The position numbers and the translations under genes are program-made. From positions 1-22,986 of the IMG/VR virus record IMGVR_UViG_3300005518_000042: a stretch of DNA of 22,986 nucleotides. The stretch is one strand, 5' to 3'. The notes below the pieces were generated by a model that was not told where the DNA came from, did not search any database, and was given only the letters and a program-made list of their open reading frames with translations. Below are positions 4,143 through 14,971 of the stretch, piece by piece; position 1 is the first letter of the stretch; every line of letters starts with the position of its first letter. Source of the DNA: a virus.

Positions 4143-4171
4143 TTGTCTTAGTCCGAATTGTAGGCTATACT
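4143..4171 (+). promoter_or_regulatory. Probable promoter of the tRNA transcript
   Basis: TTGTCT at 4143-4148 and TATACT at 4166-4171 are spaced by 17 bp. The start would be near 4178, upstream of the short peptide gene, the tRNA and the terminator at 4697-4730. This is a consensus-based prediction. Confidence 0.5.
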
Positions 4172-4289
4172 ACTGCTATACCTTTCTTCTTGTAGGTGAC
4201 CCATGTATGCATGCGATACAGGTGAAATTCCCGCAGTCTGTGTTGGGCAACTCAAGCATTTTGAGAATGTCCACACGGAGGATGTCAGC

Positions 4290-4430
4290 ATGATTAGCGA
4301 GTTGATCGGCTGGTTTCGGAAGTTAGCCCGCGGCAATGGCCGCCTGTTGCTCAAGGTCTTTGGCGGCAACATCACGGGATTTGAGCCAACACCTGACATT
4401 CCCAACAAGAAGAAGAAGAAAGCAAGTTGA
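4290..4430 (+). CDS. Short basic peptide immediately before the tRNA
   Basis: A 46-residue peptide from ATG 4290, starting MISELIGWFRKLARGNGR and ending in a lysine run (NKKKKKAS). GGAGG at 4277-4281 precedes the ATG by eight bases. The frame is also open from ATG 4203, which has a weaker site (AGGTGA), giving 75 residues. The N-terminal part is a plausible amphipathic helix and the tail is strongly basic. Its TGA stop ends at 4430, and the tRNA begins at the next base, so ribosomes finishing this frame would run onto the tRNA 5' end. Function unknown. Confidence 0.5.
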   Translation: MISELIGWFRKLARGNGRLLLKVFGGNITGFEPTPDIPNKKKKKAS

Positions 4431-4502
4431 CGCGGGATGGAGTAAAGGCAACTCACCAGGCCCATAACCTGGAGGTTATCGGTTCGATTCCGGTTCCCGC
4501 TA
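4431..4502 (+). tRNA. tRNA-Met(CAT), initiator-like
   Basis: A full cloverleaf can be drawn: acceptor 4431-4437 with 4495-4501, D-stem GAGT/ACTC with loop AAAGGCA, anticodon stem CCAGG/CCTGG with loop CCCATAA (anticodon CAT at 4463-4465), variable loop AGGTT, T-stem ATCGG/CCGGT with loop TTCGATT, and discriminator A at 4502. The first acceptor pair is a C1 x T72 mismatch, and D-stem pair 11:24 is A:T; both are hallmarks of bacterial initiator tRNA. Of the usual three G:C pairs at the base of the anticodon stem, two are present and the third is A29:T41. The 3' end reads CTA, so CCA is not encoded. Alternatives with the same anticodon are elongator Met or lysidine-type Ile. Confidence 0.85.
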
Positions 4503-4559
4503 CTATCCCCAATTTTTAATCGACAGTGACTAGCCAGGGGAGCAGGCTATGAGAGCCTC

Positions 4560-4626: not shown

Positions 4627-4696
4627 AGGGCAGGGTACACAAGGGGCTCAGCTTCCATCCTAAGTGCTGATAACGCGGGCCTTCGGCCCATGCAGG

Positions 4697-4730
4697 CGCT
4701 CTTGATCTGAGAGGATCAGGGGCGTTTTTT
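4697..4730 (+). terminator. Rho-independent terminator
   Basis: An 11-bp stem (4697-4707 with 4714-4724, including G-T wobbles) around the 6-base loop TGAGAG is followed by TTTTTT at 4725-4730. It would end transcripts from 4143-4171 or 4560-4589, leaving the long rightward gene block without an obvious promoter of its own. Confidence 0.85.
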
Positions 4731-7234: not shown

Positions 7235-7728
7235 GCCGTACCTGCACTATTTGCTCACATCCCCAACGCGCTGCGATTGACTCTGCTTTTGCCGCAGGAG
7301 CATCTTATCGAAGCATAGCGAAGCAGTTCGATTGTTCCGAAGCAGCCATGTATCGCCATACTGCTGAGCATATCTCACAAGCAATTAAAGAGGCGCAGGC
7401 AGCCAAAGAAGAGGCGCAGGCGCTCGACGTGGTGATGCAGTTACGCGAGATCAATGACGTGGCTCGTGCCATCATGCATCAGTCCTTAGAGGCGAAAAAG
7501 AACGGCACGGCACTCTTTGCCATTGATCGTATTCAGAAGCAGTTGGAATTGCAGGCAAAGCTCTTGGGTAATCTCAATGATGCGCCGCAAATCAATATCT
7601 GGCTCTTGCCGGAGTGGCATACTATTCGCTCGACCATCGTACACTCGCTTTCACCGTTCCCTGATGCGCGTGTCGCGGTCGCGACCGCACTTTCACAACT
7701 AGAGGAGAGTCGTGCTCGCCTCAACTGA
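7231..7728 (+). CDS. terS: Probable small terminase subunit (zinc/HTH protein)
   Basis: A 165-residue protein. The N-terminus has CTICSH followed by a helix-turn-helix (about residues 13-42, SYRSIAKQFDCSEAAMYRH), a layout common in phage DNA-binding proteins encoded just before the large terminase. A long helical, Gln/Glu/Ala-rich middle (48-115) fits an oligomerisation region. In the packaging motor the small subunit recognises phage DNA and delivers it to the large subunit. The assignment rests on this domain order and on its place directly before the terminase ATPase; a transcription regulator is the alternative. Confidence 0.7.
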   Translation: MSRTCTICSHPQRAAIDSAFAAGASYRSIAKQFDCSEAAMYRHTAEHISQAIKEAQAAKEEAQALDVVMQLREINDVARAIMHQSLEAKKNGTALFAIDRIQKQLELQAKLLGNLNDAPQINIWLLPEWHTIRSTIVHSLSPFPDARVAVATALSQLEESRARLN

Positions 7729-8461
7729 CTTGGCGATGGCTCTGGATCCGGTGCTTCTGGCACGAGCCGCAGGAATAGAACCGGATCCGTGGCAGGCACG
7801 GTTGCTCAGAAGTTCAGCACAACGCATCCTGCTCAACTGCTCGCGGCAGAGTGGCAAGAGTACAACGGTGGCGACCCTCGCGGTTCATACGGCGTTCTAC
7901 GAGCCAGGCGCGCCCATCTTGCTTCTGTCACCAGGGCTGCGGCAGAGTCAGGAATTGTTCCGCAAGTGCTTGGATGTGTATAGGGCGCTCGACAGGCCCT
8001 ACCCGCCGGAGACAGAGAGCGCGTTACGGTTGGAGCTGGAAAACGGCAGCCGCATTATTAGCCTGCCAGGCACAGAAGCAACGGTGCGCTCGTTCTCAGG
8101 AGTGAAACTGCTGATCATCGATGAAGCAAGCCGGGTGGAAGATGCGCTATACATGGCAGTACGACCGATGTTAGCGGTGAGTGGTGGGCGATTAGTGCAA
8201 CTGTCAAGTCCCTTTGGGACACGCGGCTTCTTTTGGGAAGCGTGGAAGAACAGAGAATATTGGGACTACTACGAGGTGCCTGCAACGGAGTGCCCGCGCA
8301 TCTCGCCTGAGTTCCTGGAGGAAGAGAAGGCAACGATGGGTGAATGGTGGTTTGAACAGGAGTACATGTGCAAGTTCCTGGATGCGCTCACAGCAGCGTT
8401 CAGAAGCGAGGACATCGAGCGTATCGTGAAACCAGGAATCGAGCAATGGCTGTTGAACTAG
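7712..8461 (+). CDS. terL: Large terminase, ATPase part (split gene)
   Basis: A 249-residue ATPase motor domain. Walker A is CSRQSGKST (43-51), Walker B LLIIDEAS (133-140) with catalytic Glu138, and the coupling segment is LSSPFGTRGFFWE (about 164-176). It powers DNA translocation through the portal. GTG 7712 is chosen because GGAG lies four bases before it; ATG 7736 has no ribosome site. The protein stops at 8461 exactly at the linker where an intact large terminase continues into its nuclease domain; that domain is encoded by the next, overlapping frame. No Walker residue is lost, so this looks functional rather than decayed. Confidence 0.9.
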   Translation: MLASTDLAMALDPVLLARAAGIEPDPWQARLLRSSAQRILLNCSRQSGKSTTVATLAVHTAFYEPGAPILLLSPGLRQSQELFRKCLDVYRALDRPYPPETESALRLELENGSRIISLPGTEATVRSFSGVKLLIIDEASRVEDALYMAVRPMLAVSGGRLVQLSSPFGTRGFFWEAWKNREYWDYYEVPATECPRISPEFLEEEKATMGEWWFEQEYMCKFLDALTAAFRSEDIERIVKPGIEQWLLN

Positions 8462-9162
8462 CACAACTGAATCCGGCGTGCGTCGGTGTCGATGTCGGTC
8501 AGATCCATGACCCGACCGCCATAGCCGTGGCCGAGGTGGGACAGGTGTTCACGGGCAAGTATCGCTATGGCGAGCAGTACCGCAAACCTGCCTATGTCGA
8601 TGCACAGATGCAGTTTCACAAGGCGGTCGATGCGCAAGAGGTCATGGTGAGCGAGTACACCGTGCGTCACATCCGGCGCTTGCCACTGGGCACAAGCTAT
8701 CCGGATGTAGCGTTGCACATCGCTGACATGCTGTGCAACGAACTGTTTGCTCATCGCCAGGTGCGCGTGTTGATTGACGTAACCGGCGTTGGCCGCCCAG
8801 TCTATGACGATCTGAAGCGCGAAATCAGATTGCGGCCAGAAGCCCAGGGCGTGCGCTTGCAGCCCATCACCTTCTCGTGGGGTGAGAAGTACAATCGTCA
8901 GACTGGCGTGCTTGCCAAGGCGTTCCTGGTGAGCCGGTTGCAATCGCTCTTACAGGGCGGTCGTGTGCATGCGCCGCAGACGGCAGAGGTGAAGGTGATG
9001 CTGGAAGAGTTGCGCGTGTACGAAATCAAGGTAGACCAGGATGGCAAAGATACCTACGGCGCTACCATCGGTAAACACGATGATCTGGCAACGGCGTTAG
9101 GGCTCGCGTGCCTGGAAGACCCATTTGCCGATCAAGTGGGCTATAGCAGCAGGGTGTATTAG
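8446..9162 (+). CDS. terL: Large terminase, nuclease part (split gene)
   Basis: A 238-residue RNase H-fold nuclease domain of a large terminase. The acidic metal ligands are visible: Asp16 in VGVDVGQ, Asp111 in LIDVTGVG, and Asp212/Asp213 in HDDLATALGLA. It would cut concatemeric DNA at packaging start and end. It starts at ATG 8446 inside the ATPase gene, in the -1 frame, with a 16-base overlap; AGGA lies roughly nine bases upstream. No slippery heptamer is seen in the overlap, so separate initiation by coupling is likelier than frameshifting. The frame is open upstream to ATG 8368 but without domain similarity. Confidence 0.9.
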   Translation: MAVELAQLNPACVGVDVGQIHDPTAIAVAEVGQVFTGKYRYGEQYRKPAYVDAQMQFHKAVDAQEVMVSEYTVRHIRRLPLGTSYPDVALHIADMLCNELFAHRQVRVLIDVTGVGRPVYDDLKREIRLRPEAQGVRLQPITFSWGEKYNRQTGVLAKAFLVSRLQSLLQGGRVHAPQTAEVKVMLEELRVYEIKVDQDGKDTYGATIGKHDDLATALGLACLEDPFADQVGYSSRVY

Positions 9163-13871: not shown

Positions 13872-14276
13872 ATGCCCGTCGATGCCCTAAATGTCTTACA
13901 AACAAGTGTGACCAAGGTCGCTTCGTTTTCAGGTGCAGCTTTAATTCTGGCTGGAGGGACGCCCCGGCGTGGGATGAAAGCCCGCATCATCTATAGCGCA
14001 GCCTCTCAAGCCAGTGGAAGCGGCGTGTGGACGTTTTCAATTGATGTTTGCTACGATGGAATTCCCACGCTGTGGAACGTCGATTTCGTAGCACCGCCAA
14101 TCACGCTCACAGCTTCGGCGCAGGCAGGGGAGATTTTTATTCCCTTTGACGTCAGTCCAACGGTTGTAGCCGGGGTTATCACCGCCCCGCAAATACGCTG
14201 TACTGCGACGCTGAGTGGCTCGCCTGTGACGCCGACGATTACCTACCAGTGTGACCTCAGTTTGACGAGGCCTTAG
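13872..14276 (+). CDS. Beta-rich structural protein
   Basis: A 134-residue protein predicted to be mostly beta strands: GAALILAGGTPRRGMKARI, VWTFSIDVCYDG, ITLTASAQAGEIFIPFDVSP, PTITYQCDLSL. It resembles phage head or tail decoration proteins with an Ig-like or jelly-roll fold, an inference from composition and gene order. AAGGAG from the previous gene's end lies nine bases before ATG 13872. Its stop overlaps the stop of the opposite-strand homing endonuclease. Confidence 0.7.
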   Translation: MPVDALNVLQTSVTKVASFSGAALILAGGTPRRGMKARIIYSAASQASGSGVWTFSIDVCYDGIPTLWNVDFVAPPITLTASAQAGEIFIPFDVSPTVVAGVITAPQIRCTATLSGSPVTPTITYQCDLSLTRP

Positions 14277-14971
14277 TCAGGGAAACGCGCTTTCCAGCCT
14301 TTATGGCTGATCTTGTTTCCCTTAGCAACGTGCATGAGGTTGGAACGATCAAGATGATGCTCTTTGCAGAATTGCCGAATACCGTAAATAGTCTGCTCAG
14401 TGCCATCGGGTGCAATGACGATGAGGGCTTTTGTGTTAGTCCTCCCTTGTCTCATTTTCTCTATGGTCTCAGGAGAGCGCTTCTTGCCAAGCTTGGACTG
14501 TCCAACGTTCTTACGGTGTTCAAGAGTATGTTTCTTGCCAAGCCTGATGGTACTGAGCAGTTTGCGAGTTTCAGACGAGGCTTTCTTGCCAGTATGATTG
14601 GTGTTACCACGTCGAGCAGCACTCAGTTTCTCGCGAGTGATAGGCGAGGCTTTCATACCCAGGCTAGAGCCAGCAGTGATAGCAATGTTAAAGCCGCGCT
14701 TTCCAAACGGCTGGTATCGGTCAAGCCAGTATTGCTCGCGTGCCGTCAGACTCATCGGCAAAACCAATTCCAGCACTTCGAAGATGAAGGCATCGGGGCC
14801 GTACTTGTTAAAAGCATGTTGCAGTTTGGGGTTATAGTGCTTGTTCCGCTGAAGCTCACTAAAATGGTTAGCTTTGCGCCAACGCAAATTGACGGCGCTT
14901 CCTATATAGAACATGCCTGTAACGGTGCAAGTGATCTTGTAGATACCCGATGTGTTGGGGATAGTGCTCAT
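14273..14971 (-). CDS. GIY-YIG homing endonuclease with NUMOD repeats
   Basis: A 232-residue selfish endonuclease. The GIY-YIG nuclease domain has SGIYKI (Gly9-Ile10-Tyr11), FYIGSA (YIG 22-24), Arg30 and the catalytic Glu79 in AREQYW. Four NUMOD3-like basic repeats follow (about 105-176, e.g. GKKASSETRKLLS and GKKRSPETIEKM), then a NUMOD1/IENR1-like DNA-recognition helix-turn-helix (about 181-229, with TIYGIRQFCKEHHLDRSNL). Such enzymes cut a phage lacking the gene and are copied in by repair. It faces against the structural operon and its composition differs from the neighbours, both fitting a mobile insertion. No intron boundaries are seen, so it looks free-standing. Confidence 0.95.
   Translation of the reverse strand: MSTIPNTSGIYKITCTVTGMFYIGSAVNLRWRKANHFSELQRNKHYNPKLQHAFNKYGPDAFIFEVLELVLPMSLTAREQYWLDRYQPFGKRGFNIAITAGSSLGMKASPITREKLSAARRGNTNHTGKKASSETRKLLSTIRLGKKHTLEHRKNVGQSKLGKKRSPETIEKMRQGRTNTKALIVIAPDGTEQTIYGIRQFCKEHHLDRSNLMHVAKGNKISHKGWKARFPD

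Follow-up and report, generated by a model that had tools for sequence, protein, structure and literature searches.

The window, a 22,986-base IMG/VR virus record analyzed over its whole length, comes from a tailed phage with tyrosine integrase, terminase, portal and capsid genes. ARAGORN, Rfam and our own reading of the sequence placed an initiator-type tRNA gene with the anticodon CAT at positions 4431–4502 on the plus strand, where it forms a complete cloverleaf. It was the single tRNA called by ARAGORN in the whole window (tRNA-Met(cat), 4431–4503, +), and the match of 4431–4502 to RF00005 scored 53.8 bits (E = 3.2e-9), confirming the CAT cloverleaf claimed in a preliminary description of this DNA. 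In standard numbering, the acceptor stem (CGCGGGA/TCCCGCT) contains a C1×T72 mismatch, the D stem (GAGT/ACTC) includes the A11:T24 pair, and the anticodon stem (CCAGG/CCTGG) has A:T at 29:41 and G:C at 30:40 and 31:39. The mismatch, the A11:T24 pair and the presence of only two of the three usual G:C pairs are thus as that description had read them. The T stem is ATCGG/CCGGT, and A73 is followed by CTA, so that CCA is not encoded. The anticodon loop, CCCATAA, carries C at position 33 instead of the near-universal U, a feature absent from the preliminary description.

Two further pairs of the tRNA are also unusual: 13:22 is U:A and 15:48 is A:U, rare yet paired versions of C:G and G:C. Because both are paired replacements of C13:G22 and G15:C48, the fold is probably still under selection, and together with the intact stems these changes argue that the gene is not decaying. 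When the isolated strand was folded, the minimum-energy form was not the cloverleaf. Such a result is common for unmodified tRNAs, and we give it little weight.

The stop codon of a 75-aa ORF (4203–4430, +) lies directly before the tRNA, and the two are probably carried on one transcript. A family search with this ORF gave no match, and its one weak relative (33%) was found in locus L011. A σ70-like promoter match (TTGTCT-17-TATACT; 4143–4171, +) lies upstream of the ORF and the tRNA, and a terminator-like hairpin with a T tail (4694–4727, +) lies downstream of the tRNA; neither kind of match exceeded the shuffle rate. The tyrosine integrase gene (143–1267, +), near the contig end, suggests a temperate phage or a derivative of one. 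The tRNA itself sits in a variable region to the left of the terminase genes and was absent from the close terminase relatives in which it was sought, indicating that it is dispensable in this lineage.

In bacteria, formylation and P-site determinants comprise the 1:72 mismatch, G2:C71, C3:G70, A11:U24 and the anticodon-stem G:C pairs (PMC7949028), and the window tRNA has every one of these except G29:C41. Set against bacterial tRNA-fMet as a class, it combines CAT in a complete cloverleaf with an unpaired 1:72 and with the formylation helpers G2:C71, C3:G70 and A11:U24. It departs from that class in the run of three consecutive G:C pairs at 29–31:39–41, interrupted by A:T at 29:41, and in U33, replaced by C33, neither of which is a strict requirement. 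The paired 1:72 and the elongator-type positions of elongator tRNA-Met or lysidine tRNA-Ile2 were not found. To the extent that CAT by itself permits an elongator or lysidine identity and that 29:41 is not G:C, the gene could be an elongator tRNA-Met or a lysidine-type tRNA-Ile that resembles an initiator by accident. A position-specific log-odds comparison over 47 positions, leaving out 1, 72, 29–31, 33–36 and 39–41, nevertheless gave the window tRNA +15.9 bits for initiator over other CAT tRNAs, with an initiator class that was defined by the GG/CC stem only and may include some mislabelled members. Leave-one-out trials assigned 109 of the 133 initiator-type tRNAs and 60 of the 63 other CAT tRNAs to the right class. 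Since these positions are independent of the features on which the preliminary description had relied, they support its initiator assignment well, as do the viral relatives described below, in which A11:U24 and the 1:72 mismatch co-occur. We consider an elongator or lysidine identity very improbable.

To learn how far the initiator features extend, we scanned IMG/VR with sequence patterns around the anticodon and T arms. In a set of 195 unique viral initiator-type tRNAs, which was restricted to those with A11 and an intact D stem and whose acceptor register was set without reference to 1:72, position 1:72 was paired in only 23%, whereas every other stem pair was paired in about 95% or more. 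The unpaired 77% comprised many kinds of mismatch (CA, TT, CT, AC, AA), and the restored pairs were most often T:A. The mismatch occurred in 158 of 220 viral initiator-type tRNAs, as compared with 22 of 645 (3.4%) non-CAT phage tRNAs from the same contigs. Because it is rare in other phage tRNAs but frequent and varied in the initiator type, these results indicate that the 1:72 mismatch in viral initiator tRNAs is maintained by selection, rather than arising by drift. The expectation that relatives restoring the 1:72 pair would count against the assignment therefore holds for a minority of the viral tRNAs, the larger part having remained mismatched in many different ways.

The pattern AGGCCCATAACCTNNAGGT by itself matched 91 stretches in IMG/VR. 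In a joint scan for C33 and U33, the first 80 matches listed comprised 77 U33 and 3 C33 tRNAs, placing C33 at about 4% of viral initiator-type tRNAs. With an estimated 213 or so C33 viral contigs overall, there should be thousands of U33 viral contigs, an approximate number that depends on three C33 events. Named phages with an initiator-type tRNA include Pseudomonas D3, Myrna, Wakanda and Pan5. Thus, the statement that phages normally carry elongator tRNAs, made in the preliminary description, understates the case. Among the 277 viral loci that carry an initiator-type tRNA (L046–L328), 175 showed no other tRNA in the stretch examined, which argues against carriage for codon compensation. Taken together, the data make it likely, at a probability of about 0.7, that the window gene encodes a working initiator tRNA for the phage, one of a known and widespread kind; judged from sequence, it belongs to a real, common class of viral tRNA, has the rarer C33 loop and is probably functional.

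As to the host, a Chloroflexota genome has four copies of the large-terminase ATPase protein, one of which is 64% identical to that of the phage, as compared with at most 55% in Pseudomonadota and 50% in Thermus and Meiothermus phages. A search for the capsid protein in the class of the terminase-bearing Chloroflexota genome found nothing, and we regard Chloroflexota as a lead to the host, not a conclusion. A patescibacterial host, to which the nearest tRNAs pointed, was not supported: the best terminase match in 287 genomes had an E value of 2.8e-7 at 27%, as against 64% in the one Chloroflexota genome, and the ranking of nearest tRNAs is biased, the cellular sample having been fetched largely for C33. 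All initiator-type matches listed in that Chloroflexota class had U33; if the phage infects this group, position 33 is a point of difference between its tRNA and that of the host.

Neither deviation is confined to this gene. In the U33 viral set (n = 101), 29:41 was A:T in 38, G:C in 34 and T:A in 21, and since A:T or T:A prevails, a weak first anticodon-stem pair is normal in viruses. A29:U41 is also native in part of the Chloroflexota class that holds the closest cellular terminase relative and in Dojkabacteria initiators. The idea that A29:U41 marks a half-initiator was accordingly dropped, A:T or T:A being found in most viral initiators and A29:U41 being native in some Chloroflexota. As to position 33, C33 was the sole initiator form that the pattern matched in Weissella and in the complete chromosomes of Dojkabacteria and Phycisphaerales, and it occurred in about one in seven pattern-matching Patescibacteria. 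Because it is native in these groups, C33 is compatible with initiation in cells. We also rejected C33 as a viral hallmark, given its low share of viral initiator-type matches and its native occurrence in several bacterial groups. The native bacterial C33 initiator tRNAs were seen in L409, L423, L335 and Patescibacteria genomes (Dojkabacteria, Phycisphaerales, Weissella and others).

The tRNA-Met of Pseudomonas phage D3 (AF165214, 53398–53473) is, like that of the window, a phage-encoded initiator-type tRNA with C1×T72, the loop CCCATAA and C33, but it has all three G:C pairs, encodes CCA and lies near other tRNA genes. The D3 gene (L447, 801–876) is annotated merely as tRNA-Met, although it is initiator-type with C33 and C1×T72. 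The tRNA-Met genes of Mycobacterium phage Myrna and Pseudanabaena phage Pan5 share A29:U41 and two G:C pairs with the window tRNA but have U33; 1:72 is an A×C mismatch in the initiator-type tRNA of Myrna and is restored to A:T in Pan5. The Pan5 initiator-type tRNA (L446, 2000–2073), itself unannotated, overlaps the start of an annotated omega repressor gene. Nearest by sequence in the set (83%) was a native initiator tRNA of Candidatus Dojkabacteria (L409/L464), which shares C33, A29:U41 and an identical D-loop, AAAGGCA, with the window tRNA but is a cellular gene with C1×A72 and an encoded CCA; the genomes sampled from its phylum showed no near relative of the phage terminase. Escherichia coli tRNA-fMet (metZWV/metY) resembles the window tRNA in its 1:72 mismatch, in A11:U24 and in G:C at 30:40 and 31:39, and has U33 where the window tRNA has C33. 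It further differs in having C1×A72 and G29:C41 (PMC7949028).

From the anatomy of the gene and the initiator features kept in its viral relatives, both of which were observed, we infer how the tRNA may be expressed, charged, formylated and used in initiation, and why it may be carried. It would be released from a transcript that also carries the 75-aa ORF, receive CCA from a host enzyme and be charged by the host methionyl-tRNA synthetase. The unpaired 1:72 and the A:U at 11:24 would then lead to its formylation, and the two kept G:C pairs (30:40 and 31:39) would let it enter the ribosomal P site. During infection it would thereby replace the host initiator pool or add to it, in the latter case perhaps as no more than a simple boost. 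It might be most useful where a defence directed at tRNAs has cleaved or blocked that pool, for initiator tRNA is known to be attacked by toxins of this type: VapC cuts it (PMC7180214) and AtaT blocks it (PMC8522696). One paper proposes that tRNAs of phages can resist the tRNases of the host (PMC10264068); it also reports that phages infecting one VapC host tend to avoid carrying tRNA-fMet, which counts against a defence setting. Also against it, A37, A38 and C39, at the 3′ side between anticodon loop and stem where VapC toxins cut, are unchanged in the window tRNA. As to changes near the cut of an anticodon nuclease, the tRNA differs at position 33 from the U33 of the sampled Chloroflexota initiators, bearing in mind that Chloroflexota may not be the host, and is unchanged at 37–39. 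We offer defence as a tentative reason for carriage, and on balance an unlikely one. It is considerably more doubtful that C33 and the weakened first anticodon-stem pair were themselves selected to keep the tRNA competent for initiation while escaping toxins that cut or modify initiator tRNA; if this were true, phages with C33/weak-29:41 tRNAs would carry a defence-proof initiation supply.

Two other reasons for carriage were considered. Under tRNA-dependent lysogeny, described for some mycobacteriophages (PMC10865867), the phage inserts itself into the host initiator gene and so disrupts it, and the phage-borne copy makes up for the loss of this essential tRNA. The phage tRNA is still an initiator in that case; only the reason for carriage differs. 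Both the tyrosine integrase and the fact that this is the only tRNA of the window would fit such a strategy. However, no core of at least 13 bp matching Chloroflexota initiator genes was found elsewhere in the window, a negative result tempered by the facts that only about 10 bp are needed, that Chloroflexota may not be the host and that the integrase lies near the contig end, and the 11–12-bp matches to these genes were at chance level and far from the integrase. Recombinase motifs, moreover, occurred in just 11 of the 175 viral loci in which the initiator-type tRNA is the sole tRNA, at a per-base rate about that of the terminase relatives; given this lack of enrichment, lysogeny is unlikely as a general reason, and for this phage we think it improbable. 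The window tRNA was also rejected as an attachment site, since the first 5.5 kb contain no long repeat of this gene and no 13-bp Chloroflexota initiator match lies elsewhere. Alternatively, the gene could be a neutral passenger, an initiator gene acquired only recently and not under selection for any role in the phage, as its absence from close relatives, its lack of an encoded CCA and its location in the variable region would allow. The paired compensations at 13:22 and 15:48, the intact stems and the maintenance of initiator features across many diverse viral tRNAs make this the least probable of the reasons considered.

An initiator tRNA is needed by every new protein and is a known toxin target, and the open papers found treat phage tRNAs mainly as elongator supply. 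Viral initiator-type tRNAs are a common but little-studied class: many phages keep one, and usually no other tRNA accompanies it in the stretch examined, something that codon compensation fails to explain. This wider viral pattern is of more interest than the single window gene.

Two further features of the window were recorded. The large terminase is split into overlapping ORFs (7712–8461 and 8368–9162, +) for the ATPase and the RNase H-like nuclease; a terminase ATPase ORF of about 250 aa is also present in a Chloroflexota genome, and L011 and L012 have about 250 extra bases between the ATPase and nuclease parts. An ORF at 14273–14971 (−), on the strand opposite to the structural genes, resembles a GIY-YIG homing endonuclease when read by eye.
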